A stretch of DNA of 64,000 bases from Akkermansia muciniphila (GCA_945882215.1 CAMCWM010000006.1:1-64000); one strand, 5' to 3'. Counted from the first letter of the stretch, positions 8,094-23,997 are shown. Translations and numbers: made by a program. The notes: a model not told the origin generated them from the sequence alone.

Positions 8094-8865
8094 ACTCACG
8101 CGTCTGGATGTAGTCCAGGTACTCGCACTCTCGGTAGCCGTCGAGCAGCATGCCGCGCAGCAGTTGGATGAATTCCATGCCGCCCAGACCGCGGAAGATG
8201 ATCAAATCGAGCAGCCCGTCCGTGTTCGACGCATCGCGGAACAGTGGAAACGGTCCGCCGTAGTGTTTGCCGTTGCCAATCAGCACCACGGTGCCCAGCA
8301 GCGGAGGTTTGCCGTCGATCTGCACACTGAGCGTCGGCGGAGTCTGCATCAGCACGTTCACGGCGCTCATCACATAGCTAAGCGGGCCGTATTTTTTCTT
8401 CTGCTCCCACGAGGTGTCCTGCACGATTTGCGCGTCGAGACCCACGCCGCCGAGCTGCACAAAGTAATGCTCGTTTGCCATCCAGAGATCGATTTCCTGC
8501 CGCGTTCCGCTCGTGATCTTCCGCCAGCAGCCTTCGATGTCCCGGCCTGGCAGCTTCAGCTCCACGGAGAACACATTCATCGTGCCCAGCGGCAAAACAC
8601 CCAGCGCCGTGTGATTCTCACCGGGTCTGCGGCGCGCGTTGGCGCGGCAGATGCCTTGCAGCACCTCGTTCATCGTGCCGTCACCGCCGGCGGAGACGAT
8701 GAGTTCGTGCCCTTCCGTCGCCAGCCATTCTGCGATCACCGCCGCATCGCCGGGGGCTTTCGTGAGATGCAGTTCCGGCTCGGGCGTGAGCTTGCGCAGG
8801 GCATTTTCGAGCGACGCAGCTTTGGTGCTGCGTGCGGCGGGATTCAAAATGACCGGGATGGGCAT
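7975..8865 (-). CDS. Diacylglycerol kinase-type lipid kinase (YegS/DgkB-like)
   Basis: A 296-residue lipid kinase. I choose the ATG at 8863-8865 (MPIPVILNPAARSTKAA) because the family begins with the nucleotide-binding strand I-x-NPxA; the frame extends to 8904 but adds no conserved residues. Motifs: NPAAR near the N-terminus, VSAGGDGTMNEVLQG (the GGDGT ATP-binding motif at about residues 69-73) and LGVLPLGTMNVFS. The C-terminal domain ends with VELDGELADLSAPVVFRPAP, as usual in this family. It transfers the ATP gamma-phosphate to diacylglycerol or a related lipid, linked to phospholipid recycling. It overlaps the tail of the pseudouridine synthase gene tail-to-tail and is divergent from nuoG. 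Confidence 0.87.
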   Translation of the reverse strand: MPIPVILNPAARSTKAASLENALRKLTPEPELHLTKAPGDAAVIAEWLATEGHELIVSAGGDGTMNEVLQGICRANARRRPGENHTALGVLPLGTMNVFSVELKLPGRDIEGCWRKITSGTRQEIDLWMANEHYFVQLGGVGLDAQIVQDTSWEQKKKYGPLSYVMSAVNVLMQTPPTLSVQIDGKPPLLGTVVLIGNGKHYGGPFPLFRDASNTDGLLDLIIFRGLGGMEFIQLLRGMLLDGYRECEYLDYIQTREFTVTSDRGEAPVELDGELADLSAPVVFRPAPFRLSVIAG

Positions 8866-8999
8866 GGCGGGGCGCATGAATGGCACGCGCCAGCCGCTTG
8901 GCAAAGACTGATGCCTGGACGCTTGTGAAACTTTTCACAAAATCGGGTTGCCGCACTCCATGCGGCTCCGATAATCGACTCCAGCCCCCATTTTTGCTC

Positions 9000-10739
9000 A
9001 TGCCTGCCCCTGCTGAAGCCCCTGCCGCTACTCCCGCCCCACCACCGCCCGCCGATCTGGTGAACGTGCAGATCGATGGCGTCTGGCTCAAGTTCCCCAA
9101 AGGCACCCGCATGATCGAGGCCTGCAAGCAGGCCAAAGCGGAAGTCCCGCACTACTGCTACCACCCGAAACTCTCCTCCCCCGGCAACTGCCGCATGTGC
9201 CTCGTCGAGATGGGCATGCCGCCGCGCCCCGCTCCCGGCACCGAGCCTGAAAAAGACGAGCACGGCATGCCGAAGATCGGCTGGATGCCGCGTGCGGTCA
9301 TCGCCTGCGCCAACACCGTCGCTGAGGGCATGGGCATCCGCACGGATTCCCTCCTCACGCAGGAATGCCGCAAAGGCGTGATGGAGTTTTTGCTCATCAA
9401 TCACCCGCTCGACTGCCCCATCTGCGATCAGGCGGGCGAATGCCGTCTGCAGGAGTTCAGCGTCGAGCACGGCAAAGGCGAAAGCCGCTTCCGCGAGGAC
9501 AAGGTCAAGAAACCGAAGAACGTCGATATTGGCCCGCGTGTGCGCCTCGATGACGAGCGCTGCATCATGTGCAGCCGTTGCATCCGCTTCACTGCCGAGA
9601 TCGCTGATGATCCCGTGCTCGGCTTCACCGAACGCGGCAGCCACACCACGCTCGCGGTGCATCCTGGCAAGCGTCTCGAAAACAACTACTCGCTCAACAC
9701 CGTCGATATTTGCCCCGTCGGTGCTTTGACCTCGAACGACTTCCGCTTTCAGCAGCGCGTCTGGTTCCTCACTGAGACGAACAGCATCTGCACCGGCTGC
9801 GGTCGTGGTTGCAACATGGAGATCGGCGCACGTGGCGAAACCGTTTATCGGCAGACGCCACGCGATAACAACGACGTGAATTCCTCGTGGATGTGCGACC
9901 AAGGCCGTCTCGACTTCCATTTCGTGAACAGCGAGTTCCGCCTCACCGATCCGATGATCAAAACCGGCGGCAAACACAACATCGCCACCTGGAAAGCCGC
10001 GCTGAGCAACATCGCCACCGCTTTGGCCGGCAAGAAGGGTGAAGAAATCGCCATCATCGCCAGCGCCCGCATGACCAACGAGGAACTCTTCTTCGTGAAG
10101 CACCTCGCCGCCCAACTCGGCACCACCAACGTCGATGTCATCCCCCGCACCGGCGGCTCCGACAACTACCTCCGCGCCGACGACCTCAATCCGAACACCA
10201 ATGGTGCCAAACTCATCCTCGGCATCGAACCCGGAGCCAAACTGGCCGAAATCACCGAAATGATGAGCCGTGGCCGCCTCCGCGCTGTCTTGGCTCTTGG
10301 TGAAAACCTGCTCAAAGTCGGCTTCGCCCAACGCGACCTCGAAAAAGTGCCGTTCATCGCCTCCCTGCACATTTTGGCCAACGCCAGCGCCGAACTCAGC
10401 GATGTCGTCCTCCCCGGCACCGCCTACGCCGAAAAACGCGGCAGCATGATCAACGTCACCGGCCGCCTCCAGCGCCTCAACCGCGCCGTCAAAGCTCCCG
10501 GCAACGCCCACGACACCTGGGAAATCCTCCGCGACCTCATCGTCGCCCTCGGCGGCTCCAACGGCATCCACACCGTCGAAGATGTCTTCAAACGTCTCGC
10601 CACCGAGATCCCCGTCCTCAATGGCCAAAGCTTCTCCAAGATCGGCGATCAGGGCGTCCGGGTGCTCGAAACCGCCGAAAAGATCCCTCTCCTTGAGCGT
10701 GAGAAGGAACGTAAGGCGAAGGGAATCATTGTTGGGTGA
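9000..10739 (+). CDS. nuoG: NADH-quinone oxidoreductase subunit G, short form
   Basis: A 579-residue iron-sulfur subunit of respiratory complex I. The ATG at 9000 is preferred because the earlier frame from 8880 encodes non-conserved sequence overlapping the divergent kinase start. An Ala/Pro-rich leader is followed by the [2Fe-2S] ligands C53, C64, C67 and C103, then H135-x3-C139-x2-C142-x5-C148 for a [4Fe-4S] cluster and CIMCSRCIR with a distal CPVGAL. A molybdopterin-like domain begins near residue 260 with TGCGRGCN. The C-terminal half is much shorter than in E. coli NuoG (about 908 residues). No other nuo gene lies within the window, upstream or downstream. Confidence 0.85.
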   Translation: MPAPAEAPAATPAPPPPADLVNVQIDGVWLKFPKGTRMIEACKQAKAEVPHYCYHPKLSSPGNCRMCLVEMGMPPRPAPGTEPEKDEHGMPKIGWMPRAVIACANTVAEGMGIRTDSLLTQECRKGVMEFLLINHPLDCPICDQAGECRLQEFSVEHGKGESRFREDKVKKPKNVDIGPRVRLDDERCIMCSRCIRFTAEIADDPVLGFTERGSHTTLAVHPGKRLENNYSLNTVDICPVGALTSNDFRFQQRVWFLTETNSICTGCGRGCNMEIGARGETVYRQTPRDNNDVNSSWMCDQGRLDFHFVNSEFRLTDPMIKTGGKHNIATWKAALSNIATALAGKKGEEIAIIASARMTNEELFFVKHLAAQLGTTNVDVIPRTGGSDNYLRADDLNPNTNGAKLILGIEPGAKLAEITEMMSRGRLRAVLALGENLLKVGFAQRDLEKVPFIASLHILANASAELSDVVLPGTAYAEKRGSMINVTGRLQRLNRAVKAPGNAHDTWEILRDLIVALGGSNGIHTVEDVFKRLATEIPVLNGQSFSKIGDQGVRVLETAEKIPLLEREKERKAKGIIVG

Positions 10740-10741
10740 GC

Positions 10742-10802
10742 CAGCGAGGAAATATCTGGTTTCCGCTGACTCTTCAGGGCGGATATCATGCTCCTCAGCA
10801 TG
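10742..10802. terminator. Pair of hairpins between convergent nuoG and glycosyltransferase genes
   Basis: The 66-base convergent spacer holds two dyads. The first, 10742-10768, pairs CAGCG-GGAAA with TTTCC-GCTG around TATCTGG with a small bulge. The second, 10787-10802, is CATGCT-CCTC-AGCATG with a perfect 6-bp stem. Neither is followed by a clear T-tract, so a bidirectional terminator is plausible but not certain. Confidence 0.35.
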
Positions 10803-10805
10803 CAC

Positions 10806-11645
10806 TCAGCGTGTCACTTCGACAAAGGTGTGAGTCAGTTTTGGATTCATGTACAACATGGCGGTCGCGATGTTGGACACCGGATGTATCAGGTGCGCGG
10901 TGCGTGACATCGCGAGCGTTCTGGCGAACATGTTGCGCACATGGCCGCTGCCATAAGTGTCGTGGCAGACCGGACTTTGACCGGTCAAAGGAACCCTGTT
11001 GATGACATCCCAAGTCAGCATGCGGCCGCCGAGGCGCGCATGAAACTCATAAGCGGCCTCATCAGAGTCGGCGCAAACGAACACAGGGGCGTATTTGGAC
11101 ACGGCATTCACCGCCTGGCACATATCATCCACGGAAGGAAGGACTCCCGTGAGTTGCTCGCGCGCCAGACCTTTCTCCCCACGATGAAGCACGGCCACAC
11201 ATTGGTGAAGCGATTCTGGCAGTATGGAGTTTGCAATGCCCAGCACCTCGGTCTTCACCTCGATCTTCTGAAACTGCCCGTGCAGGCGCTGACGCCAGTC
11301 TTCACCAAGTTTATACAGATGTCCGGTCCGGCTCCCGGTGTACCTGAGGTGTGGATACTCCATCACGATGGCCCGATGTTCTCCTTCGAGAGGAGCGTCG
11401 CGCAAGGGATGGCAGATGACCTCCCACAAGTTTTTTTCAGTGACATTTCTGTAGAATGTCTGTCCGGGCGGAAAGCTGACTTCAACACGCGGATAAATCT
11501 CCATGCAGGTGATGACCTTGTTGAAGAGGGAGAAAATACCTCCTCGATGTGGAATAACGACGCAGGCATCCGGACGTGACACCGGCTTGGCGGGATGGCT
11601 GGTGGATTCCTGGCATGCTGGTGCCTGCGCTGAGGGGTCGTTCAT
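10806..11645 (-). CDS. Glycosyltransferase-like protein (fucosyltransferase-like fold), third GT of the operon
   Basis: A 279-residue protein. The start ATG at 11643-11645 overlaps the stop of the previous gene by four bases (ATGA), so translation is coupled; the frame extends further upstream but that stretch is covered by the previous gene. The C-terminal half has VFVCADSDEAAYEFHARLGG, a D-x-YG segment and SRTAHLIHPVSNIATAMLY. This order of an SD-containing strand and a late Ser/Asn-rich acceptor strand resembles the C-terminal nucleotide-sugar domain of NodZ/Fut8/O-fucosyltransferase-type enzymes. VLHRGEKG may correspond to the HxR element. Substrate and sugar are unknown. The assignment is by pattern only. 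Confidence 0.55.
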   Translation of the reverse strand: MNDPSAQAPACQESTSHPAKPVSRPDACVVIPHRGGIFSLFNKVITCMEIYPRVEVSFPPGQTFYRNVTEKNLWEVICHPLRDAPLEGEHRAIVMEYPHLRYTGSRTGHLYKLGEDWRQRLHGQFQKIEVKTEVLGIANSILPESLHQCVAVLHRGEKGLAREQLTGVLPSVDDMCQAVNAVSKYAPVFVCADSDEAAYEFHARLGGRMLTWDVINRVPLTGQSPVCHDTYGSGHVRNMFARTLAMSRTAHLIHPVSNIATAMLYMNPKLTHTFVEVTR

Positions 11646-12559
11646 GCGGGTGCTAGTTTGAGCAGCTTGGGTTTTGCACCCAGCGCTTCGGCAATCATGA
11701 GAAACCCTGATGTCACCGTTCCAAGAACGAGCTGACAATGTCCCAACATCCAAAGATCCACCACGGCATCCCTGACGTCCGTCTGGCGTAAAGATTCCTT
11801 CCATGCCTTGTCATGGCTGATGAAACGAATGCCATCTGTTGCGAGCCAGCCGGACCACCGAAGAAAGGCCGCATGATCGTCGGACGCCAGATAAAAACAG
11901 GCATGGGGATTCACCTTGGCTTCGTGCCGGACCTCATCGAGCAGGGCGATGTCGTGCATGGCCAGATTGGCCGAGGTTATTTCCTTCCTGAATGGGTGGT
12001 TCACAACATCCGTGCGCCTTACATGGATACCAATGAGTGGATTGCCGTGCGCTATTGCCAGGCATGCGTCAATGTTTTGCCGGACCGCATCCACCGGCTT
12101 GAAGGAACGTATCTCCGACCGCCAGGCATCCTTGAAGGAATCCAAGCTGTGGTAGGGACCGTGATCCAGGCCGCAGGGGACAAGGCGTCCCCAGAATTCC
12201 CAAGGTGTCACGTTGCTCGGCATGGAAATCAAGACGCTCCTTGGAGGTAGCGCCGGGATGTCCTTTGGATCGCGGCATACCCCTGCCGGATAGGTGAAGA
12301 GCGACTCATACGTGGCCGGACACTTGGCGTTCGCAGACCAACCGTATAGCAGGCGCATCCGGTTCGCCTTGGTCCATGCCAGACCGCAAGCGAGACCCCG
12401 CAGCCTATCACAAAGACCGTATTGGCCGTGCATATTTGACCAACAGGCCACTCGCTCCTGAATTCCAAGGTGTTCGAGCCAGTTCATGCAGCGTGTTTTC
12501 AACATTGTCCATGAAGAGCGCGTTGGATTTGGCGGGGTTTTGGTGACGGAAAAACTCAT
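11642..12559 (-). CDS. Glycosyltransferase-like protein with fucosyltransferase HxRRxD motif
   Basis: A 305-residue protein. The ATG at 12557-12559 shares one base with the stop of the upstream gene (TGATG overlap), which fixes the start better than the longer frame to 12634. Seen motifs: NMHGQYGLCDRLRGLACGLA near the N-terminus, IGIHVRRTDVV in the middle (the H-x-R-R-x-D element typical of GDP-fucose-using GT11/GT23 and related transferases), then FYLASDDHAAFL and a late DLWMLGHCQLVLGTVTSGF. The N-terminal G-x-x-D-R-L-R-G also fits that superfamily. It probably transfers a sugar from a nucleotide donor to a surface glycan or protein. It is the middle of three coupled genes. Confidence 0.62.
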   Translation of the reverse strand: MSFSVTKTPPNPTRSSWTMLKTRCMNWLEHLGIQERVACWSNMHGQYGLCDRLRGLACGLAWTKANRMRLLYGWSANAKCPATYESLFTYPAGVCRDPKDIPALPPRSVLISMPSNVTPWEFWGRLVPCGLDHGPYHSLDSFKDAWRSEIRSFKPVDAVRQNIDACLAIAHGNPLIGIHVRRTDVVNHPFRKEITSANLAMHDIALLDEVRHEAKVNPHACFYLASDDHAAFLRWSGWLATDGIRFISHDKAWKESLRQTDVRDAVVDLWMLGHCQLVLGTVTSGFLMIAEALGAKPKLLKLAPA

Positions 12560-14826
12560 CAGCCGTCCTCCCTTCGTTCCATGAAGTAGTTGGCGAGACC
12601 TTCGCTCATTGAATGGGGGGCGGTCTCGCTCCACTCGATCAGGCCAGCAGGAGTCCGCATAATGTGCGAGGGTGCGAAATTACGCATCATTTCACGCCGG
12701 CTCACATAACGGCGCTCGGCGCGGTCTCCGTGCCATTCGTGCCAGACATCTCCCGCCAGATAGGCAACTCGACCCTGGCACCACTCTTTTACGGCGGTGG
12801 CCCACACCTCGTGATGGTGTCGACTGGCATCCTGAGTGTAGCCCACGGCCGTTTTCATGGAAGCAGACAGGGGTATGTCCAGCAGAGTGGCTGCTGTGAC
12901 AGTGTCGCCCGAACCCGCCAGAGCGAGATCATACAATCCCGGACTCATCAACCAGAAGTCTCGGTGGGCTGCCCACGCAAAGCCTGGGTGAGCCCACTCG
13001 TCCCTCCGAGCCTTCACAATAGCGTGCCTGGAAAGCTCCATTCTCCCTTCGCGATCCATCCAGCAGGCGCGCTCAAACAGCTGGATGACACGGGCGCCGT
13101 TTTTGACGGCTTCCAGCAGCTCCGCTACCCATGTAGGGCGTTCGAACCAGACGTCAGCGTCCACCCAAGCCAGCACCTGACAGTGGTCCGGCACGCGTCG
13201 TGCCAGTTCGTTGATGGCGGCCTCTTTCTGCCAAAGAACACCGCGCTGGGTGACATATTCGACCCACCAGCCCGGAATTCCCGCAGTCACAGGGAGCGTT
13301 CCCTGAAGACATATCTCCATTCCATACACCGTGACGCCAAGGCTACGGCATTGAAGCAAAAAGCGCATGAGGTTCCTGCGCGGTTCGGTGAAGCCGGCGA
13401 AGTTGAAGTGGGTGCAGAGGACGGCGACCGGATGTCCATTGGAGCCATGGGGAACATACTGCGGCGGCGGAGTGATTTGCGCGAAGGGAGGTCCGATGCG
13501 ATCGGATTGCTTGGCCGTCCCATTTTTGTCGTCCGGTCTGCAAATGGTGGCTGCAACCGGTGTTTCCACAGTCTTTGTCCCGGAGTGTTGCGCCAGCGCG
13601 TCGAGAATGCGGACGTTTTCTCCGGGAAAATCGGCAGACGACCGCCTGCCGTCCAAACCAAGACCCGGCCAGAGCGTGGAAGTGGCACCGACATGCTCGG
13701 CGAGGCTGGGCGCATGCATCCAGAAATGATGCTTGGTTCGGACACACCAATCTCCAATGACCGAATCCACGTTTTTCGTGCCGTCGAGGATGCCTTTCTG
13801 CCGGTGCGCAACCACCTTCGGGTCGGATAGAAAGGTGCGGGCCGCAGCATTGGGGAAAATCAACGCCTGCGCCCCCCATGCCTGCCAGCCAAGCTCCGCA
13901 TGGAAGAAGCCAGCACTTTTTTCAGCGGCCAGATGGCCCGGGGTATGCAGCGAAACCACCCCGACAACCGCGCCTTTCGGCCATAGGCGCTCTTCCAAGT
14001 AATCGCGCAGTCCGCGGCAGAAGATCACATCATCCTGCACCATGAGGTAGGCGTCCGCGTCGGGCTGGCGGAGGTAAAGCTCCTGAAGCCCGAGGAAAAA
14101 GTTTGGCCAGGCTCCCAGAGCTGGCCCATTTCGGTGGATGACCGCCACGGGGCCGCTGATGAGCCGGGCGGACCAAGTGCGTGTGCCTGCTTCGGCGAAA
14201 AGGTGCACGTGCTCTGTCCAGCCCGCTTTGCGCAAGGAGCGCAGCGCACGGTTCAGCGTGGCCTCCGAGCGTGGCGCTGTTGTCATGCCGACGGCCCAGC
14301 GCGCCACCTTTTGCGAAGGCGGTCGCGGCTTGTAGTCACGGCACTTTTGGCAGTGCTGGATGGTGGTGGTCTGGTGGCGTGGGTGATGGCATTGGAACAC
14401 TTTTCGCCGCACGTTGCCCCGGCAGGTGCGACACTGCTGCTCTCCAGTCTGTGCGCCGAGATGGCGGCACGGGTGCGGACTCGGGCCGCCTGCGCGCTGC
14501 TCTGGACTGGCAGATGACACATCTAGATATCGGATGACCAGCGGCAGCATCATCGAGGCGGTGGCCGCGTCACATCCGGGGACGCCGCCCGCGTTTTTGA
14601 CCTGCTGCAGCGCCTTGTAGAGGGTGGAGGCGACGATGCCGTTTGGCTCCTCGGCGGTCGGTGGTGCGCTCTCGCAACACCGCGCGCATTCATGTTCGTT
14701 CACCGCGCACAGCGCCGGATTCTCCGCACCAGAGATGCCCAATGCCAGCAGGCAGGCATGCGTGGCTTTCCCGAGCGGCGCTGGGAGAGGCTGGCGGTAG
14801 GGGCAGGCGTCAGGCATTCTCGGCAT
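12559..14826 (-). CDS. Two-domain GT-A-like glycosyltransferase with two Cys-rich clusters
   Basis: A protein of 755 residues from the ATG at 14824-14826 (a GTG five codons upstream is possible). The first Cys cluster has C8, C25, C40, C47, C50 and C51. The second has C120, C132, C135, C146, C159 and C162 in a C-x11-C-x2-C-x10-C-x12-C-x2-C spacing with interspersed His, like a small zinc-binding module. A first GT-A-like domain follows, with TTAPRSEATLNRALRSLRKAG and YLMVQDDVIF (acidic metal-binding motif near residue 265). A second begins near residue 466 with AVLCTHFNFAGF and carries VLAWVDADVWFE with a DAD motif at 556-558. It likely adds two sugars or binds two donors; products are unknown. 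Its stop overlaps the next start. Confidence 0.65.
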   Translation of the reverse strand: MPRMPDACPYRQPLPAPLGKATHACLLALGISGAENPALCAVNEHECARCCESAPPTAEEPNGIVASTLYKALQQVKNAGGVPGCDAATASMMLPLVIRYLDVSSASPEQRAGGPSPHPCRHLGAQTGEQQCRTCRGNVRRKVFQCHHPRHQTTTIQHCQKCRDYKPRPPSQKVARWAVGMTTAPRSEATLNRALRSLRKAGWTEHVHLFAEAGTRTWSARLISGPVAVIHRNGPALGAWPNFFLGLQELYLRQPDADAYLMVQDDVIFCRGLRDYLEERLWPKGAVVGVVSLHTPGHLAAEKSAGFFHAELGWQAWGAQALIFPNAAARTFLSDPKVVAHRQKGILDGTKNVDSVIGDWCVRTKHHFWMHAPSLAEHVGATSTLWPGLGLDGRRSSADFPGENVRILDALAQHSGTKTVETPVAATICRPDDKNGTAKQSDRIGPPFAQITPPPQYVPHGSNGHPVAVLCTHFNFAGFTEPRRNLMRFLLQCRSLGVTVYGMEICLQGTLPVTAGIPGWWVEYVTQRGVLWQKEAAINELARRVPDHCQVLAWVDADVWFERPTWVAELLEAVKNGARVIQLFERACWMDREGRMELSRHAIVKARRDEWAHPGFAWAAHRDFWLMSPGLYDLALAGSGDTVTAATLLDIPLSASMKTAVGYTQDASRHHHEVWATAVKEWCQGRVAYLAGDVWHEWHGDRAERRYVSRREMMRNFAPSHIMRTPAGLIEWSETAPHSMSEGLANYFMERREDG

Positions 14827-14854
14827 CACGATGGTTCCCACAGTGAAACCCGCC

Positions 14855-15298
14855 TCATAGAGATTTGCGCTTAGGCCACAGCAGCCAGAGCACCAGCGCG
14901 GCCGTCAGGACGCCCAATACCGGGCCGGTCCACCCGGACAGGGATTTCGCCTCTGCCCAGCGGCCGCCCAGCCATGTGGCACCCAGCCCCATGACGACCG
15001 CCAGGATGATGCGGATGAGCGGAGAGCCTTCATCCACGTCTGGTAGACATTCCTCCCACTTGGCTCCACGGCTGGTCCCCCTTCTGCGAAGCTCAGCTTT
15101 GCTCAAGATTTTGTTGCATGTCGGGTGGTACCCCGAAGCGCATCGGTTGTCGCCACAGCAACGCATGACACCAAATTGGTCGATGTCTGCCAGGAAATAT
15201 CCACCGGGGTGGCTGCCTGGGGGATAGGAACCCGGGTCTCCAGAGCAAAGTGGAGCGGTCGCGGCTCGCAGGAAGGTTTCACGCATGGATTCTTTCAT
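14855..15298 (-). CDS. Small Cys-rich protein with two C-terminal membrane segments
   Basis: 147 residues, not recognised. The N-terminal 90 residues are hydrophilic and contain C18, a CC pair near residue 47, C52, C61 and C84, with FGVMRCCGDNRC and CNKILSKAELRRRG as the notable blocks. Two hydrophobic segments follow (IRIILAVVMGLGATWLGG and VLGVLTAALVLWLLW), with a basic end KRKSL. A topology with the Cys-rich part on one side of the membrane and a helical hairpin anchor is likely. The Cys pattern suggests zinc binding, like the Cys clusters of the glycosyltransferase encoded just downstream. It starts 54 bases after the kinase stop and ends 28 bases before the next gene, so it is probably in their operon. 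Confidence 0.6.
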   Translation of the reverse strand: MKESMRETFLRAATAPLCSGDPGSYPPGSHPGGYFLADIDQFGVMRCCGDNRCASGYHPTCNKILSKAELRRRGTSRGAKWEECLPDVDEGSPLIRIILAVVMGLGATWLGGRWAEAKSLSGWTGPVLGVLTAALVLWLLWPKRKSL

Positions 15299-15352
15299 GA
15301 GGAGTCGGTGGGATAGTATGATGCTAGCGTTCGGCGGTAAAACGTGGCAAGA

Positions 15353-18300
15353 TCATTTTTCAGGAATTTCAGGAGGCACGATCCGTGCCAGACGCAGTCC
15401 GGCATGGGTCGCTGCCGATTTACGTCCTGTCATGAAGATCTCTTCTTGTCCCATCCCCCCCGGATGCGTCGTGTACGATCCCCCATACACCTCTCCAATC
15501 TCAGTACTTTTCACCTCTCGGAGAGCATGTCCCCATTCTCCGGCATTTCCCAAGGTGTCCCATAGTCCTTGGTCGTTCGGCAATAGAAGTGCGACGTCAT
15601 TCGCATGAACGCCAGAGTTCAGCGCTCCCCAGGCGAAGAAAGTCATGTGCGTTCTTGCATTACCAAAGTCATAGCTGCCCTTCGGAACAGAGGCGGCCGC
15701 AGTCTTCCATTCCGTGCGCGTGGGCAGCCGGTATCCCGCGTAGCTGTTCGTGTCGAAATCGGGCTTTGAGCCTGCAACCGCATAAAGGTGCCCTGCAAGC
15801 TCTAGGTTCTCCTTCGCGGACAACCAATCGCAATAATTCGCCGCCTGTTCCCAGCGCAGGCCATGCACCGGTGCGTCCTTGTCTTCATCCTTGGCGGGAA
15901 TGAACTGCACGAACCGGGAAAACTCGGCTTGTGTGACCTCGCAGGCACCGATGGCGCATCTGCGGCCGTCTGGCAGCCGGATCATGCGCATGTCAACGCC
16001 AGAGGGGGTCACCCACCATCCTTTTCCAGACTCCGGGAAGGGAAGGCGCGGCAGTTTTTTCTGCCACTCGGCCAGTTCCAGGTCTAGTGACCAGCGCTTC
16101 ATCAAGGTGGCGATGGAGGAGTGCACGCCGCCATCCGGATCTGTTGTGTAAGCATCGCGTAACCACGCCAAGGTGCGTTCATGCAGCGATGCTGGCAACA
16201 GCGACGTCGGATACGCGCTCAAGGCCAGCAGCACCGCCTGACGCACACCAGCATCCTTCTCCACCAGCAGTCGCTTCACCAGCGTCTCGAGCGGAACACC
16301 AGCGGCGGCAGCATTGACGAACAAAAAAGTGCGCAAAGTGCGGTCGGCCTGCCGTCTCAGGCATGGCCAGAAACTCTCCTCCCTGCCGAGACAGAGTCCG
16401 GCCAGCAGCACATTGGCATGGGCTGCGAGGGCGGCTTCGTCGTCGTCGCTTAGAAGCTCCGGTTCGCTGCCGCCTGCGATCTTGACCTGCGGGGCCTTGA
16501 ACCCTGCCAGCAACTCTCCCGCCCCGGAATGTCTTTTCAAAGCCTGAACCACAGGCGGCATGGCAGAGGCCGGGACCAGCCTCAATAGCTTCACAAGTTC
16601 TGTTGGTGCCTCGGCGTGCAGGCTGGCCATCAACGCCGCGACATGCTTCTGATCCGCCTCAATCTGCGCGGAATGCAGCGCTTTTTCCAGCAAGGGGGAT
16701 AGCTTGTCGGCACGCCGACCCAGCAGGGCCGCCCATGCGGCAGGTTCGCTCACGGATGTCACCAGCCAGCGGGCCGCGTTCTCGTCCACGCCGTCGAGTG
16801 TGGAGCCACCCTCCTCAAAAGCTGTCAGTGCAACGTAGGCTCGCAGTTTCTGGCCGTTGACGGCCTCCGCGTTTTTCAAGACGGCGTGAAAAATTTCCGG
16901 CGCGGGCTGGTGGCTTCTCAAAGCCTGGCGAATCGCCCCGAAGACCGTCGCGTCAGCGTCCAGCATCGCAGTGGCCAGGACCGGCACATGGGATGGGTTG
17001 TAGTCCACAAGTGCCAGGCGTGCGTTCAGCCCTGCGGTGGTGGTCAGGGGCAGCATGGCGGCTTCTGCCAGCCTTGGCTGCACTGCCTTTCTCCAAGGTT
17101 CGGCATGTTTCATGAGAGTCGCCACTTCGTTTGCTGGCGCGGATAGCACTCTTTCAGCCAGATCATCGCCGCGCATTACGGCGCGGAGTTCATGCAGGCC
17201 CCATCCTCCTGCGCAGAGCATGATGACGCAGACTGCGGCCCAAGTTTGGGCGCGGTTCATGCCCTTGCGCATCCAGCGCCTCTCCTCATTCGTCCATCGC
17301 GAGCTATTTGTGAGCATGCGCAAACGAAGCCACTCCCAGACCCCCGGCAGGCGTGCGGGATCGGGACGCGCGTGCCATTCGCGTGCTCGTTCGCCCAACC
17401 GGATCTCGGCGCGTCCAAGCAGCGTGTCCGCCTTGCGCGCCAGAAGCCATACGCGCAGGGCTGGCACCATGTGATCATGTGTGAGCTGCCAGGACGCCTG
17501 GCCGTCCGATGTTTCCAGCGTGTCCACCGGCGTGAGCAGGCGCAGATCGGCATCCAGCACATGCAGCAGTTCATGGAAAGCTTTGGGATGTGATTCGTAG
17601 CCGGATGCCGCCTGCAACTCCGACTGCTGGCGGGCGGCACCGCGCACATCGCCTGTTTCAGGCACAAAGAGCTGCAACACCTGCCGGGCCGCCTGTTCAT
17701 GAACCCGGTGCGGCCCGCGCGCAGAGGTGCCGCAGAATGTTTCTTCCAGAAATGTCACGGCGACTCCGCTCACACCACCCACCTGCCGCAGGCCTTCAGG
17801 ACTCCACTCGCGATCACGGAACATCTGTGCGAACAAAGCCAGCCTCACCGGCGAAACCCGCCGGTCTTCCTCCAAACTGCGCACCGACTCGCGGATGAAC
17901 TCGAGAGCGGTCTTCGGAAGCGGCACGGCAGGATCTTCCGGCAGGCACTGGTAGGCGCGGCCGAAGCTCTCCAGCACCATCTCCGCGTGACGCGGCTCAA
18001 ACAGATCCACCAGTGCGCTGTTGTTATTATCCAGTTCGACGTCTGCCTCGGTGAGCAGCCGGCTCACGCTGCGCCAGAAATCGTCGCGTACCAGCATGAG
18101 CATCTGGATCTGTGTGCCGTCGCACTGCCGTAGCGTGTTTAACAGCGCAGGCCCCTCTTCTAAGTCTGGCATCAGCTCATCACCGCCACCGCTGGGAAGC
18201 GTTTCACCGTGGGAATCCACAACGTCTTCCACTGCGGCGGTTGATTCGCCCGCCCGCAGCCATTGTTCCGTCTGGTCGATCACCAGCAGCAGCTTGCGCC

Positions 18301-19684
18301 CGCCACGCAGCAGCCCGTTGTGACGCAGCTTTTGCAGCAGAAGTGGGGGCGATTCGCCGAAAGGAGCCAGCGAAGGAAATTTTTGCCACAAGGCTTTCGC
18401 CAGGCGCGTCGCATTGCCCGCGCTTCGCGCTTCGTGAAACAGCACGGTGACATGCTCTGCGCAGCGTGGCAGCAGGCCGGCGCGTATGAGAGAAGACTTG
18501 CCGCAGCCAGACGGTCCGTAAAGAACTCCCACGCGAAAGGCGGACTGTGGATCATCGGTTTCGATGCGCTGTTTCCAAAATCGGAGGCTCTCCGGCAGGC
18601 CGTGTCGATCTCGCGGCCCGGGAACCAGCGTCAGGAAAAAATCCGCGTCGCCTTGGTCGAACGCCCGCAGGCCACGGGGCACGACACGGGGTTTCGAGGA
18701 GTGCGGGCCGGTGGCCCCCGTGCGAGGAGCGGCGGCTTGAGGTGCATTGCCCGCCGCCGTCCCCGTCGCCGCAGGAGGCGGCACGCCCACCACGGTTTCG
18801 CGCATCGCAGCCTGCCACTGGCGGAGATCCTCCAGCATGTCGGTGGCCATCGCATACCGCAAGCGGATCTGTGGCTGCAGCGCCTTCAAACAGATGCGTT
18901 CCAGCTCTTTGGAAACGCGGGGTTCTATCTGACGTGGCGGCGGCGGCCCGCCGGATTCCAGCAGGTCCATCTGCTGCCGCACTGAACCGCACGGGAATGC
19001 CTGCTGACCCGTCAGCATCTCAAAAAGCACCGCCCCCAGGCTGAAGATGTCGGACCGGTTGTTGACCAGATGATCTTCGCCACGGAGCTGCTCCGGGCTC
19101 ATGTAGCCTGGCGTGCCAGCCGCCAGCCCCATGCCATCAAGGTCGCTCCAGCTCCGGGCCAGCCCAAAGTCGAGCAGCAGCGGACGCAGATCGGGGGTCA
19201 GCATGATGTTTGCCGGTTTGAGATCCCGATGTACCACGCCGAGCTTGTGTGCATGGTTCAGCGCCTCGCACAGTTCCGCCGCTACAACGGCGGCCTCCAT
19301 GAACGTGAGGCGCCGCTCACCCAGGTGATCGCGTAACGTCCGGCCCTCCACGTAGCGAGAGATGATGCAGTAGCCGCCCGCATCCGTCTCGACCACATCG
19401 TAGATCGGCACAATGCCCGGGTGCTCCATCCGGGCCACCATCCGTGCCTCCGTCAAAAACGCGGCGTCTGCCACAAATCCACCCCCGGAGTTGTCACGTC
19501 GAGTTCCGCGCAGAATTTTGATCGCAACTCTGCGGCGTAGAAGTTCGTCCTCCGCCAAATACACCTGGCCGAATCCACCACGCCCCAGCTCTGATAAAAC
19601 GCGGTAACGTCCGCCAAGACTCGCCATCACTGCGGTTGCGGCGGGGTCGGTTCCTGCGATGATCTGGACGGCTGGATCGGCCAT
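15353..19684 (-). CDS. Ser/Thr protein kinase fused to STAND-type NTPase, membrane segment, helical region and FGE-like domain
   Basis: 1443 residues from ATG 19682-19684 (in-frame start at 19732 also possible). Residues about 30-295 are a Hanks-type kinase with all catalytic elements: GRGGFG loop, VAIK lysine K56, HRDLKPAN with D154 and DFG with D172. After a Pro/Ala linker comes a P-loop NTPase of STAND type (GPSGCGKSS at 390-398; LLLVIDQTEQW as Walker B). A single membrane helix lies near 813-833. A long alpha-helical region rich in Leu/Ala follows, probably HEAT-like. The last 235 residues resemble the FGE/SUMF1 fold (EVTQAEFSRFV, YRLPTRTEW, NAGEW, GGSY, GLRLAR) but lack the catalytic cysteines. 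It leads a five-gene minus-strand run and is divergent from the U32 gene with a 95-base spacer. Confidence 0.88.
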   Translation of the reverse strand: MADPAVQIIAGTDPAATAVMASLGGRYRVLSELGRGGFGQVYLAEDELLRRRVAIKILRGTRRDNSGGGFVADAAFLTEARMVARMEHPGIVPIYDVVETDAGGYCIISRYVEGRTLRDHLGERRLTFMEAAVVAAELCEALNHAHKLGVVHRDLKPANIMLTPDLRPLLLDFGLARSWSDLDGMGLAAGTPGYMSPEQLRGEDHLVNNRSDIFSLGAVLFEMLTGQQAFPCGSVRQQMDLLESGGPPPPRQIEPRVSKELERICLKALQPQIRLRYAMATDMLEDLRQWQAAMRETVVGVPPPAATGTAAGNAPQAAAPRTGATGPHSSKPRVVPRGLRAFDQGDADFFLTLVPGPRDRHGLPESLRFWKQRIETDDPQSAFRVGVLYGPSGCGKSSLIRAGLLPRCAEHVTVLFHEARSAGNATRLAKALWQKFPSLAPFGESPPLLLQKLRHNGLLRGGRKLLLVIDQTEQWLRAGESTAAVEDVVDSHGETLPSGGGDELMPDLEEGPALLNTLRQCDGTQIQMLMLVRDDFWRSVSRLLTEADVELDNNNSALVDLFEPRHAEMVLESFGRAYQCLPEDPAVPLPKTALEFIRESVRSLEEDRRVSPVRLALFAQMFRDREWSPEGLRQVGGVSGVAVTFLEETFCGTSARGPHRVHEQAARQVLQLFVPETGDVRGAARQQSELQAASGYESHPKAFHELLHVLDADLRLLTPVDTLETSDGQASWQLTHDHMVPALRVWLLARKADTLLGRAEIRLGERAREWHARPDPARLPGVWEWLRLRMLTNSSRWTNEERRWMRKGMNRAQTWAAVCVIMLCAGGWGLHELRAVMRGDDLAERVLSAPANEVATLMKHAEPWRKAVQPRLAEAAMLPLTTTAGLNARLALVDYNPSHVPVLATAMLDADATVFGAIRQALRSHQPAPEIFHAVLKNAEAVNGQKLRAYVALTAFEEGGSTLDGVDENAARWLVTSVSEPAAWAALLGRRADKLSPLLEKALHSAQIEADQKHVAALMASLHAEAPTELVKLLRLVPASAMPPVVQALKRHSGAGELLAGFKAPQVKIAGGSEPELLSDDDEAALAAHANVLLAGLCLGREESFWPCLRRQADRTLRTFLFVNAAAAGVPLETLVKRLLVEKDAGVRQAVLLALSAYPTSLLPASLHERTLAWLRDAYTTDPDGGVHSSIATLMKRWSLDLELAEWQKKLPRLPFPESGKGWWVTPSGVDMRMIRLPDGRRCAIGACEVTQAEFSRFVQFIPAKDEDKDAPVHGLRWEQAANYCDWLSAKENLELAGHLYAVAGSKPDFDTNSYAGYRLPTRTEWKTAAASVPKGSYDFGNARTHMTFFAWGALNSGVHANDVALLLPNDQGLWDTLGNAGEWGHALREVKSTEIGEVYGGSYTTHPGGMGQEEIFMTGRKSAATHAGLRLARIVPPEIPEK

Positions 19685-19779
19685 GGGCGGAATTTCAACG
19701 CGAATACTGCGGGCGAACGTTCGGAAAGCCACTCAAACCTTTGGTTGTCTGCATTGCATTGCTCGTCTCTGTCAGTTGC

Positions 19780-22215
19780 ATGCCCGTCGCTCCAAAACCC
19801 GAACTCCTCTCTCCCGCCGGAAACTGGGACTGCGCCCGTGCGGCGGTCGCGAACGGGGCGGATGCGATTTACTTTGGCATGCCGCGCTTCAATGCGCGAT
19901 TGCGGGCGGATAACTTCACGGAGGAAGACTTGCCGGAGCTGATGAAGTTTCTCCATGCGCATGGCGTGAAGGGCTATGTGGCCTTCAACACGCTCATCTT
20001 CACCAAAGAGCTGCCGGATGCCGAAACGCAGCTCCGTTTGCTCGAAGATAGCGGCGTGGATGCGGTGATCGTGCAGGATCTGGGTCTCGCGCGCATGGTG
20101 AAGGCGCTCACGCCGAAGCTACGGCTGCATGCGAGCACGCAGATGACGATCACCTCGCCTGAGGGCCTCGAATTCGCCAAGCAGCTCAACATCGACCAGG
20201 CGGTGCTGGCGCGTGAGCTTTCCATGCGCGAGCTGGAGCGCTTCAAGGACGCGCATGTGCCGCTCGAAGTGTTTGTGCATGGGGCTTTGTGCGTTGCTTA
20301 CTCGGGACAGTGCCTCACGAGCGAATCGTTGGGCCGCCGCAGTGCGAATCGCGGCGAATGCGCGCAGGCCTGCCGCATGCCGTATGAAATGATCGTCGAT
20401 GGCGAACAACGTGACCTCGGCGACAAGCGTTACCTGCTTTCGCCGCAGGATCTCGCCGCCGTGGATGAAATCCCGCGATTGATCGAACTTGGCATCCGCA
20501 GCTTCAAGATCGAAGGCCGCCTGAAGACGCCGGAATACGTCGCTGGTGTCACTCAGGTGTATCGCGCGGCGATTGATCGTGCGCTGGCCAATCAACCGGC
20601 TCCTGCGAGTGATGCAGACCGTTATGCGCTCGAAATGACCTTCTCACGCGGCCTGTATCCCGGCTGGATGCACGGCGTGAATCATCAGGAGCTTGTCGGC
20701 GCTTACTACGGCAAGAAGCGCGGGCCGTATGTGGGTCAAGTCACGCGCATCCTCGGTGCTGACACGCTGGAACTCGATGAATTGCACATCGCTATGAAGC
20801 CCGGCGACGGCGTCGTTTTTGAAAACCTCTCCGACACCAATTACGAGCAAGGTGGCAGCGTCTATGAGATGCGCGGCAGCGCTCTGAGCTTCCGCCACGG
20901 CCATCTGCGCATGGAGGATGTCCAGATCGGCATGCGCGTCTTCAAAACGAGCGATCCAGCGCTCAATCGTTCCTTGAGACAGTCCTTTGAGGGCGACATC
21001 CCAATTCGGAAGCAGCGCCAGCTTGATCTCCACGTCACGGGCAAAGTCGGGGAGCCGCTCGTTGTGCATAGCGGTGCCCATAGCATTGCCTCCACCATGA
21101 CGTTGCAGGCCGCGATGAAGCGTCCGCTCACGCCGTCCGCCTTCATCGAGCAATTCAGCCGCCTCGGCGGCACGGAGTTCGAACTCGGCAGTGTGCAATT
21201 CGATGTCAAAGGCGAGGTGATGCTGCCCATCAGCGAGTTGAACCGCATGCGACGGGATTTGATTGCCTCATGGAGCGCTGACGAGTCGTCGTCAAAGCAA
21301 ACTCAGATCAGCACGGTGACCCTCGAAGAGCTCATGCCATCGCGTGGGAATGCGAGTGAGCCGGCGGCGCTTCAGCTTCATGTCCTTTGCCGCACACCGG
21401 CGCACGTTGATGCCGCGCTGGTGCTCGGCATTCCGCGTCTCTACCTCGATTTTGAAGACATTCGTCGTTATGCAGATGCCGTGAAGCACATCAAGGCCGC
21501 CAGCGACACAGCGCAGGTCTGGCTGGCGACGCCACGCATCCAAAAATCCGGCGAAGTGGGCTTCTTTAAGCTCATTGAGCGTGCGGAGCCGCATGGCGTG
21601 CTCATTCGCAATCTCGGCGCCATCTCGTTCTTCCAAGACGCGAAAATCCCGATGACGGGTGATTTTTCGCTCAACGTGTCGAATCCACTGACTGCGGAGA
21701 TCTTGAAGAAAACCGGCTTGGAGCGGCTCACGATCAGTTATGACCTCAACATCGAGCAGGTTGTCGATTTGCTCGCCGCCGCGCCGCCGTCGTGGTTCGA
21801 GCTCACGTTGCACCAGCACATGCCGATGTTTCACATGGAGCACTGCGCGTTTGCGGCCTTTCTGAGCGATGGCACCGACTTCACGAACTGCGGTCGTCCC
21901 TGCGACCACCACCGCGTTCATCTGCGCGATCGTGTTGGCATGAACCATCCGCTCAAGGCCGATGTCGGCTGCCGCAACACGCTCTTCAATGCCGTGGCTC
22001 AAACCGGCGCGCAGTTTTTCTCCGAGCTACGCGATTTCGGCCTGAGCTGCTTCCGCATCGAACTGCTCGAAGAAGATGCTGACGAGGCGATGATCGTCCT
22101 GCGCACCTACCAGGAGCTGCTGGCCGGTCAGCGCGATGGCGAGGAGATCTGGCGCGACTTGAAGGCCCAAAGCCAGCTTGGGGTGACGCGTGGAACATTG
22201 CAGGAACTTTCTTGA
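19780..22215 (+). CDS. rlhA: U32-family protein, RlhA-like (23S rRNA hydroxylation)
   Basis: 811 residues from ATG 19780 (MPVAPKPELLSPAGNWD); the upstream in-frame start adds a non-conserved hydrophobic stretch. The N-terminal TIM-barrel-like part opens with ELLSPAGNWDCARAAVANGADAIYFG and contains the U32 signature SGQCLTSESLGRRSANRGECAQACRMPY, whose cysteines are thought to bind an iron-sulfur cluster. The region after residue 330 corresponds to the DUF3656-type barrel of RlhA (YdcP). A second Cys segment, FTNCGRPCDHH and VGCRNTLF, lies near the C-terminus. In E. coli RlhA is needed for 5-hydroxycytidine in 23S rRNA; the longer protein here may carry the same role. The peptidase name of the family is historical. 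Confidence 0.82.
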   Translation: MPVAPKPELLSPAGNWDCARAAVANGADAIYFGMPRFNARLRADNFTEEDLPELMKFLHAHGVKGYVAFNTLIFTKELPDAETQLRLLEDSGVDAVIVQDLGLARMVKALTPKLRLHASTQMTITSPEGLEFAKQLNIDQAVLARELSMRELERFKDAHVPLEVFVHGALCVAYSGQCLTSESLGRRSANRGECAQACRMPYEMIVDGEQRDLGDKRYLLSPQDLAAVDEIPRLIELGIRSFKIEGRLKTPEYVAGVTQVYRAAIDRALANQPAPASDADRYALEMTFSRGLYPGWMHGVNHQELVGAYYGKKRGPYVGQVTRILGADTLELDELHIAMKPGDGVVFENLSDTNYEQGGSVYEMRGSALSFRHGHLRMEDVQIGMRVFKTSDPALNRSLRQSFEGDIPIRKQRQLDLHVTGKVGEPLVVHSGAHSIASTMTLQAAMKRPLTPSAFIEQFSRLGGTEFELGSVQFDVKGEVMLPISELNRMRRDLIASWSADESSSKQTQISTVTLEELMPSRGNASEPAALQLHVLCRTPAHVDAALVLGIPRLYLDFEDIRRYADAVKHIKAASDTAQVWLATPRIQKSGEVGFFKLIERAEPHGVLIRNLGAISFFQDAKIPMTGDFSLNVSNPLTAEILKKTGLERLTISYDLNIEQVVDLLAAAPPSWFELTLHQHMPMFHMEHCAFAAFLSDGTDFTNCGRPCDHHRVHLRDRVGMNHPLKADVGCRNTLFNAVAQTGAQFFSELRDFGLSCFRIELLEEDADEAMIVLRTYQELLAGQRDGEEIWRDLKAQSQLGVTRGTLQELS

Positions 22216-22248
22216 ACTGGGAGCGTTTACCACCACAGTCATCCCGCC

Positions 22249-23997
22249 ATGCCCAGGCACGTACCCGACGACTTTAGTTTTCTGCCGACCGTCGATTCGA
22301 CGGACGAGGATATTATTGAGCGGGAGACCCTCCGGAAGGATGCGCGCCACCAGCCTGGGCCTGGAACTGACAGGCCGGTGCATGAACCGATGGCCGAGGA
22401 GCCGCAGGCGCATCAAAAGACACCGGTCGTTGATCCAGCTCCGCCGATTCCCGCCAGTGCTCCTCCATCCGCGAAGAAGGGCCGCGTGTTTGAGCCGGAT
22501 GCAGGTCATCCAGAAGAGAAAGCGGAATCTGGGCAGGATGGGCGCGCGTTGTGGCAGGCGTTCCAAAAAGAACAGGAGGCGGTGCCTGCCAAAATTATAC
22601 CGCCGAGACAAGCTTCCGCAGCTCCGAAGGCCGAAACCGAGGCTCCACTGCCCACGCCACGTGCTCCTGAGGCGGTTCGTCTGCGTGATGAAAAAATGAG
22701 CGGGCCGGTGGTGACGCCGGCGGTTTCCTTGAGTGGCCGTCGTTCGGTGGAGAAAGTAGCCGCACCACCGCCGATGCCGACAGGAAAGGCCAAAGAGGAG
22801 CCGTTGCCCCGGGCTGAAGATCAGGCAGGCATTGTGGCGAATCCGAAGCCGTTCATCGCGCCGAAACCCGCGCCGACGGAGCCGGAGGATCCAGAGCAGG
22901 CCAAAAAAACCCGCTGGCGGAAGCTGGCGGAAAAAGTGGGAGTGAGCTCACTGGGCCTGAGTGTGGGTGTGCATTTGTTTCTATTGTTGATCGCCGCCTT
23001 TGTGGGCGTGACCCAGGTGATGGAGCGTCAGGTGGATTTTCTGCCTGGAGGCAGCTCACCGCAGTCGGAAGCCGCGGCGGCGGAGCTGACCCACAAGATT
23101 CAAAACAAAAAGAATCCCTGGCTGAAGTCGAAGCCGCAGATGCGCAAGCTCGCGGTGCAGACGATGTCGGCCAATGTCGTGCTCCCTGACATGCCGCCGA
23201 TGGACATGATGGACTTCTCCAAGATCACGGACCGGATGGACATCAGCAAGGCGGGCGCATTGGGAGCGAACCAGCCGATGGGAATGGGCACAGGAGGCGC
23301 GGGCGGTGGCTTCGGCTCCGGGATCGGGCGTGGCGGCAAGTTCAGTTTCGTCGGTCAGACCGCCATCGGGCGGCGTGTGGTGTTTGTCGTGGATGTCTCG
23401 GGCTCCATGTCTGCCATCGGGCAGGGGGAGAAGATCTCGCGGTTTGATCTGCTGAAGAAGGAGCTGGTCAAGAGCATCAGCCAGATCCCACCCGGCACGT
23501 CTTACCAAATCCTGTTTTTCTCCGACTTTGCGTGGCCACACAACGAGGTGGACAGCCGGAAGTCGGATGCGCTCATGAAGTATCGCTGGGAGATCGACTC
23601 CAAGGATTACAAGAAAGTGAAGATCCCCACCTTCAAATACCTGCAGGCCAGTCCATTCTCGCTGCAGGACAGCCGGGAGATCGTGGAGCGCTCTGACAAT
23701 CCCGGCGGCACCAACTGGGGGTCGGGTCTGCTCATGGCGCTGAACGCCAGCCCAAAGCCGGATGTGATCTTCTTCATGACCGACGGCAATCGTTCTGACG
23801 AAATGGGCTGGATCGATGTTGTTACGACAGAAAACAAGCGCCGGGCACCCATGACGGTGATACACACCAGTGCGATGCAGCAGCCGGACGCCGCGCGTGA
23901 GCTGGATGACCTCGCCCGACGCAACAACGGCAAGTTCACCGTGGTGATGGGCGAGGGCAAAGTCATCAAGGGCGAGGACTTTTTCAAAATGAGGTAG
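22249..23997 (+). CDS. Membrane-anchored von Willebrand factor A domain protein
   Basis: 582 residues. The first 220 are acidic/Pro-rich and disordered. A basic patch (KKTRWRKLAEKVG) precedes one membrane helix, SLGLSVGVHLFLLLIAAFVGV, at about residues 243-263. A Gly/Met-rich stretch follows (GMGTGGAGGGFGSGIGRGG). The C-terminal domain from about residue 372 is VWA: VVFVVDVSGSMS contains the metal-binding DxSxS motif, with the Thr and Asp elements GGTNWGSGL and FFMTDG. The VWA domain would be outside the cytoplasm if the basic patch stays inside. It probably mediates protein-protein interaction; no partner is evident. It follows the U32 gene by 33 bases. Confidence 0.8.
   Translation: MPRHVPDDFSFLPTVDSTDEDIIERETLRKDARHQPGPGTDRPVHEPMAEEPQAHQKTPVVDPAPPIPASAPPSAKKGRVFEPDAGHPEEKAESGQDGRALWQAFQKEQEAVPAKIIPPRQASAAPKAETEAPLPTPRAPEAVRLRDEKMSGPVVTPAVSLSGRRSVEKVAAPPPMPTGKAKEEPLPRAEDQAGIVANPKPFIAPKPAPTEPEDPEQAKKTRWRKLAEKVGVSSLGLSVGVHLFLLLIAAFVGVTQVMERQVDFLPGGSSPQSEAAAAELTHKIQNKKNPWLKSKPQMRKLAVQTMSANVVLPDMPPMDMMDFSKITDRMDISKAGALGANQPMGMGTGGAGGGFGSGIGRGGKFSFVGQTAIGRRVVFVVDVSGSMSAIGQGEKISRFDLLKKELVKSISQIPPGTSYQILFFSDFAWPHNEVDSRKSDALMKYRWEIDSKDYKKVKIPTFKYLQASPFSLQDSREIVERSDNPGGTNWGSGLLMALNASPKPDVIFFMTDGNRSDEMGWIDVVTTENKRRAPMTVIHTSAMQQPDAARELDDLARRNNGKFTVVMGEGKVIKGEDFFKMR

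Follow-up and report, generated by a model that had tools for sequence, protein, structure and literature searches.

A receptor-like kinase gene linked to glycosyltransferases with an orphan cysteine domain in Akkermansia muciniphila: a possible exchangeable glycosylation module

Results

Five consecutive genes encode a receptor-like kinase, a small membrane protein, and predicted or putative glycosyltransferases

The window, a stretch of 64,000 nucleotides from Akkermansia muciniphila, contains five consecutive genes on the minus strand. The open reading frames at 15353-19684, 14855-15298, 12559-14841, 11642-12559, and 10806-11645 encode proteins designated P0001 to P0005. Gaps of 54 and 13 bases separate the first three genes, and the last two are coupled through TGATG and ATGA overlaps, which agrees with the original prediction of five genes with no gap larger than 54 bases. 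The region's only promoter-like match (15321-15350) lies in the 54-base gap between the genes for the kinase and P0002; it is weak and at chance level.

P0001 is a receptor-like protein of 1443 amino acids. The reading frame opens at GTG 19732, and the start at ATG 19684 is supported because the corresponding frame in a genome of the same genus (G027) begins there. Matches to Pkinase (1e-43), nSTAND1 (PF20703; 8e-16), and FGE-sulfatase (2e-14) all exceed the Pfam cut-offs and bear out the predicted combination of a Hanks kinase, a STAND NTPase, and an FGE-like domain. VAIK, HRDLKPAN, DFG, and SPE motifs can be read in the Hanks-type kinase domain (18851-19606), while the nSTAND1 NTPase domain (17366-18676) contains a Walker A motif (GPSGCGKSS) and a Walker B motif (LLLVIDQ). 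These are followed by a predicted membrane helix (17192-17248) with basic residues on its N-terminal side; the helix falls below threshold in a simple hydropathy scan, and its position is conserved in 22 homologues. In the AlphaFold model covering residues 800-1459 (pLDDT 87), a long helix runs through the membrane segment; the other elements are a HEAT/ARM-like helical solenoid (16043-17131) with importin-like Foldseek matches and an FGE/C-type-lectin (CLec) fold (15464-15943).

As predicted, the FGE-like domain is degenerate. The catalytic cysteine pair of formylglycine-generating enzyme is located after the GGS motif, and P0001 contains no cysteine past YGGS. Catalysis of the FGE type by this domain is thus unlikely. 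The closest solved structure, and also the best sequence match, is the Treponema denticola variable protein (2y3c), which binds a ligand. An FGE/CLec-fold domain is a feature that P0001 shares with targets of diversity-generating retroelements; unlike the Treponema protein, it has no template/variable repeat pair near its gene, and direct repeats of at least 30 bases were absent from 8800-22300.

P0002 (147 amino acids; 14855-15298) is, as expected, small and rich in Cys; its two C-terminal membrane helices are represented by hydrophobic segments at residues 94-112 and 122-140. P0003 (760 amino acids; 12559-14841) begins with a domain of ~65 residues that we designate CysN (14617-14826). Residues C13, C30, C52, C55, N67, and S72 are invariant in 25 copies of CysN, and none of these 25 members yielded a Pfam match. 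A second Cys/His cluster (14296-14487; CRHLG...CRTC...FQCHHPRH...CQKCRDY) precedes two tandem GT-A domains, the second of which (12562-13440) ends in RREDG. Pfam alone barely detected P0003; the structural model with two GT-A domains upholds its earlier description as a two-domain glycosyltransferase with two Cys clusters. The model is most similar to K4 chondroitin polymerase, COLGALT1, and LARGE1, which likewise contain two GT-A domains per chain, with TM-scores that are low, probably because the orientation of the domains is uncertain. P0003 differs from these tandem enzymes in sequence (about 10% identity), in its Cys-rich N-terminal domains, and in the exchangeability of its second domain.

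P0004 (305 amino acids; 11642-12559, ATG at 12559) and P0005 (279 amino acids; 10806-11645, ATG at 11645) had both been called fucosyltransferase-like. This holds weakly for P0004, which matches POFUT2 (E 0.011) and FUT8 (E 0.013), whereas P0005 has no meaningful match in Pfam or the PDB and is classified here as a putative glycosyltransferase. Neither protein has a close relative in 76 genomes, and both are local cargo.

The first three genes form a conserved, linked core

Among 46 genomes of the same genus, one (G027) encodes P0001, P0002, and P0003 in order on a syntenic contig, with identities of 84, 81, and 75%, respectively. Comparison with G027 reveals purifying selection on P0001 and P0002 and on each half of P0003 (dN/dS 0.10-0.21, with synonymous change in the second of these halves close to saturation). 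Between G000 and G027, dS is 0.74 in the first half of P0003, similar to that in the kinase (0.73), and 2.8 in the second half, suggesting a probable exchange of the second GT domain. We found this domain's relatives in 106 viral contigs and, in same-genus genomes, beside endolysin- and tail-like genes. GT-A proteins with a terminal xRxEDG constitute a family that is widespread among viral contigs and that also lies near tail-like genes in same-genus genomes (L031-L110).

Cargo downstream of the core differs as well. The gene after P0003 in G027 has the same TGATG coupling but reads MAPPPGTEFSEGWAAWQNF... and is not P0004; the contig ends 117 bases past P0003. Judged by eye, this gene appears to be methyltransferase-like and resembles small methyltransferases of other loci. 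Methyltransferase-like genes follow in G027, L111, L222, and L223 (by eye in G027 and L111).

A search of distant genomes with the nSTAND1 region as query, one genome per species, recovered 79 loci, nearly all from Planctomycetota. Homologues of the N-terminal half of P0003 lie near the kinase in 13 of the 79, and 55 loci extend at least 3.5 kb downstream. A gene encoding a CysN-glycosyltransferase adjoins the kinase-nSTAND1-FGE gene in 13 of these 55 testable loci, which belong to both Planctomycetota and Verrucomicrobiota; the order in the window (kinase-nSTAND1-FGE, small protein, CysN-glycosyltransferase) is that of CysN-linked kinase loci, and in some loci the CysN-glycosyltransferase gene lies on the opposite strand. 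A search of whole genomes with CysN alone yielded 30 copies, distributed over 15 of 29 genomes, and 28 of these copies have an FGE-type kinase no more than about 10 kb away. Six CysN loci were identified independently of the kinase, and a kinase lies near four of them: a kinase-nSTAND1-FGE gene directly adjoins CysN in L222, L223, and L228, and a kinase-FGE gene without nSTAND1 lies 3.5 kb from CysN in L220. L221 (9725-13107) contains a CysN pair and a small protein with no kinase on its 15 kb contig; the sixth locus, L229, is partly masked. L223 reproduces the arrangement of the window, with a kinase, a Cys-rich small protein, a CysN-GTA-GTB protein that carries RREDG close to its end, and a methyltransferase-like gene. 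The genomes tested hold about 1-7 nSTAND1 loci each, so proximity of kinase and CysN within 10 kb by chance should be low, which we estimate at the order of 1% per locus.

CysN is fused to transferases of both the GT2 and the GT4 type. It is also rare: in the window's phylum, 1 of 388 genomes had a copy, and in that of Singulisphaera acidiphila, 3 of 343. Both counts are lower bounds because few candidates were scored per genome; in the phylum-wide search with the long kinase alignment, only two candidates were scored per genome, so that absences are weak evidence. The junction after the kinase gene has counterparts in the cultured relatives Singulisphaera acidiphila DSM 18658 and Stieleria tagensis.

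A small protein with a shared domain (GYxxWxxxGxxWxL...G.F.GQ) adjoins CysN in 11 of the 13 linked loci, usually between kinase and glycosyltransferase, and in none of the unlinked loci among the 55. This domain has no Pfam match. Cys-rich small proteins occupy the same place in L111 and L148, as in the window; profile comparison detected no relationship between P0002 and the main family of small proteins. L020 (8515-17208), L141, and L177 display a second flavour, in which the kinase is accompanied by a Ser-rich small protein and no CysN, and GT9-type genes are present in L020 and L141. The solenoid is found in all 13 linked kinases versus 28 of 42 unlinked ones (p 0.02), an enrichment to which we give little weight because the model used was built partly from linked members.

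In the nSTAND1 tree, the window groups with G027 and L111 in a single clade (support 100), and the linked kinases as a whole are scattered. At least four changes are forced, which rejects a single origin of the linkage, and the best count is ten versus 15 for shuffled labels. The tree indicates that linkage of kinase and CysN was gained or lost several times. In L181 (4147-15268), an open reading frame of 1591 amino acids directly follows a kinase frame of 2013 amino acids, possibly as a tandem kinase.

The kinase, the small protein, and the CysN-glycosyltransferase are therefore conserved as linked genes. The original prediction had envisaged all five genes as a unit. The part comprising the kinase, a small Cys-rich protein, and a glycosyltransferase recurs in distant genomes, but P0004 and P0005 are found at the locus in no relative of the same genus, and the larger unit was not sustained. 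Separate occurrence of kinase and glycosyltransferases in related genomes had been named as an outcome that would count against the prediction, and the result is mixed: 42 of the 55 kinase-nSTAND1 loci have no CysN, the kinase often standing alone, and the second GT domain of P0003 also occurs by itself, including in viral contigs, whereas CysN is almost confined to kinase loci.

The genes occupy a variable insertion site

The five genes lie on an island (about 10740-19790) between NuoG (8880-10739) and a U32 peptidase (ending at 22215). The site is empty in five close relatives, where NuoG and the U32 peptidase are spaced by 63-79 bases. Other relatives carry in this gap a passenger-repeat surface protein of 1331-1398 amino acids, a TPR protein, or a sulfotransferase/glycosyltransferase group that also has an APS-kinase-like gene. 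Being empty in some relatives and filled with differing cargo in others, the gap between NuoG and U32 represents a variable spot in the genus at which surface or glycan cargo is inserted.

No phage genes surround the island, whose flanks are housekeeping genes, and scans of viral contigs with P0001 and P0003 gave no match apart from the second GT domain of P0003. With this domain alone of viral type, a phage origin, either as prophage or as phage moron, was rejected. A BREX/Pgl system was likewise rejected, inasmuch as the match to PglW covers mainly the kinase part and falls far below the cut-off, and the neighboring genes are those of NuoG and the U32 peptidase rather than Pgl partner genes. 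Assignment to defence by PADLOC was also rejected, the matches covering essentially just the kinase domain.

Discussion

To our knowledge, the output of bacterial receptor kinases is rarely known. The locus described here joins a receptor-like kinase to sugar-transfer enzymes, and we propose that the two constitute a receptor-kinase-controlled, exchangeable glycosylation module, a reading that we hold tentatively and rate at just short of an even chance. Gene linkage alone is no proof of a shared pathway. Also weighing against the proposal are the majority of kinase-nSTAND1 genes, which have no CysN neighbor, the scatter of the linked ones over the tree, the kinase-free contig of L221, the undetected relationship of P0002 to the other small proteins, and the loci in which the CysN-glycosyltransferase gene is on the opposite strand. 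The surface- or glycan-related cargo found elsewhere at the NuoG-U32 site counts in favor of the proposal, and the exchangeable cargo suggests that sugar decoration, rather than the sensor, varies.

P0001 most likely crosses the inner membrane once. The kinase and nSTAND1 domains precede a helix with a basic N-terminal flank and are probably cytoplasmic, which would put the solenoid and the lectin-fold domain on the outer side. A ligand bound outside the cell would trigger STAND assembly and, in turn, activate the kinase, which may phosphorylate the small membrane protein and the glycosyltransferases. CysN would hold these transferases at the complex. Such docking would account for the fusion of a single domain to unrelated transferases and for its association with one type of kinase, and the presence of CysN on GT2- and GT4-type enzymes fits this role. 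The transferases could build or decorate a surface glycan or glycoprotein, with the small protein as candidate acceptor or scaffold. As strains retain the sensor core and exchange genes for sugar and methyl transfer, decoration would differ between them. With greater reserve than for the module itself, we suggest as possible an undescribed signalling system of Planctomycetota and Verrucomicrobiota, in which the new domain CysN would tether exchangeable glycosyltransferases to a STAND receptor kinase that senses a ligand, placing glycosylation of proteins or the surface under the control of a signal from outside.

Full-text searches, in which subscription journals were mostly outside coverage, found no published description of the combination of kinase, small protein, and CysN-glycosyltransferase, in line with the earlier remark that no described system with this composition was known to its author. 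Planctomycetota FGE-domain Ser/Thr kinases are mostly single-spanning with a periplasmic FGE part (PMC11032199). They share with P0001 a kinase, one membrane helix, and an FGE-type domain predicted to be periplasmic; unlike the window locus, they are reported in that paper without mention of glycosyltransferases. Other known relatives are the nSTAND1/FGE conflict proteins (eLife 2021, PMC8195603; PNAS 2024, PMC10907252), in which an nSTAND1 NTPase is combined with a C-terminal FGE/CLec sensor and kinases and GT4 are among the named associated parts.

This likeness raises the alternative, which we consider unlikely, that the locus is a conflict or defence system whose nSTAND1-FGE protein senses an invader and whose glycosyltransferases are effectors that modify molecules of the invader or host. 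Proteins with nSTAND1 and a C-terminal FGE domain belong to putative conflict systems (PMC10907252), nSTAND1 is described in counter-invader systems and GT4 as a predicted effector (PMC8195603), and the island has a patchy distribution and a variable insertion site. However, the predicted sensor faces outward. The window locus also departs from the conflict proteins in its membrane-spanning layout with a solenoid, its CysN-glycosyltransferases, and its small protein, and diversity-generating repeats were not seen. Among the Pfam matches of P0001-P0005, obtained with a library whose coverage of short adaptors may be incomplete, there was neither an effector-associated or death-like adaptor domain nor a toxic effector. 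The restriction of the PADLOC matches essentially to the kinase domain and the other cargo of the site, namely passenger/surface protein, sulfotransferase, and glycosyltransferase genes, speak against a defence role.

A product role for the small protein, as a secreted or membrane peptide modified by the glycosyltransferases and methyltransferase with the kinase as regulator or receptor, strikes us as improbable. Its gene directly precedes the transferases in nearly all linked loci, and the Ser-rich form found in L020 and L177 would lend itself naturally to O-glycan attachment; however, the N-terminus of many copies is a plain membrane helix, and no known precursor family matched the protein. 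That the kinase is a mere neighbor of a transcription unit with an unrelated task, comprising the small protein and glycosyltransferases, is very doubtful: the weak, chance-level promoter-like match in the 54-base gap, the kinase-free L221, and the many solitary kinases are in its favor, but the linkage recurs in two phyla at a level well in excess of what the spacing of 1-7 nSTAND1 loci per genome would predict.

Two orphan families emerge from the analysis, namely CysN and the small protein, as subjects for structural study. A glycosylation module under control of a receptor kinase, if true, would give a ligand-sensing kinase a testable output, in the form of sugar-transfer enzymes linked to it by the newly defined CysN domain and the small membrane protein, and it would suggest how Planctomycetota and Verrucomicrobiota alter their surface in response to neighbors.
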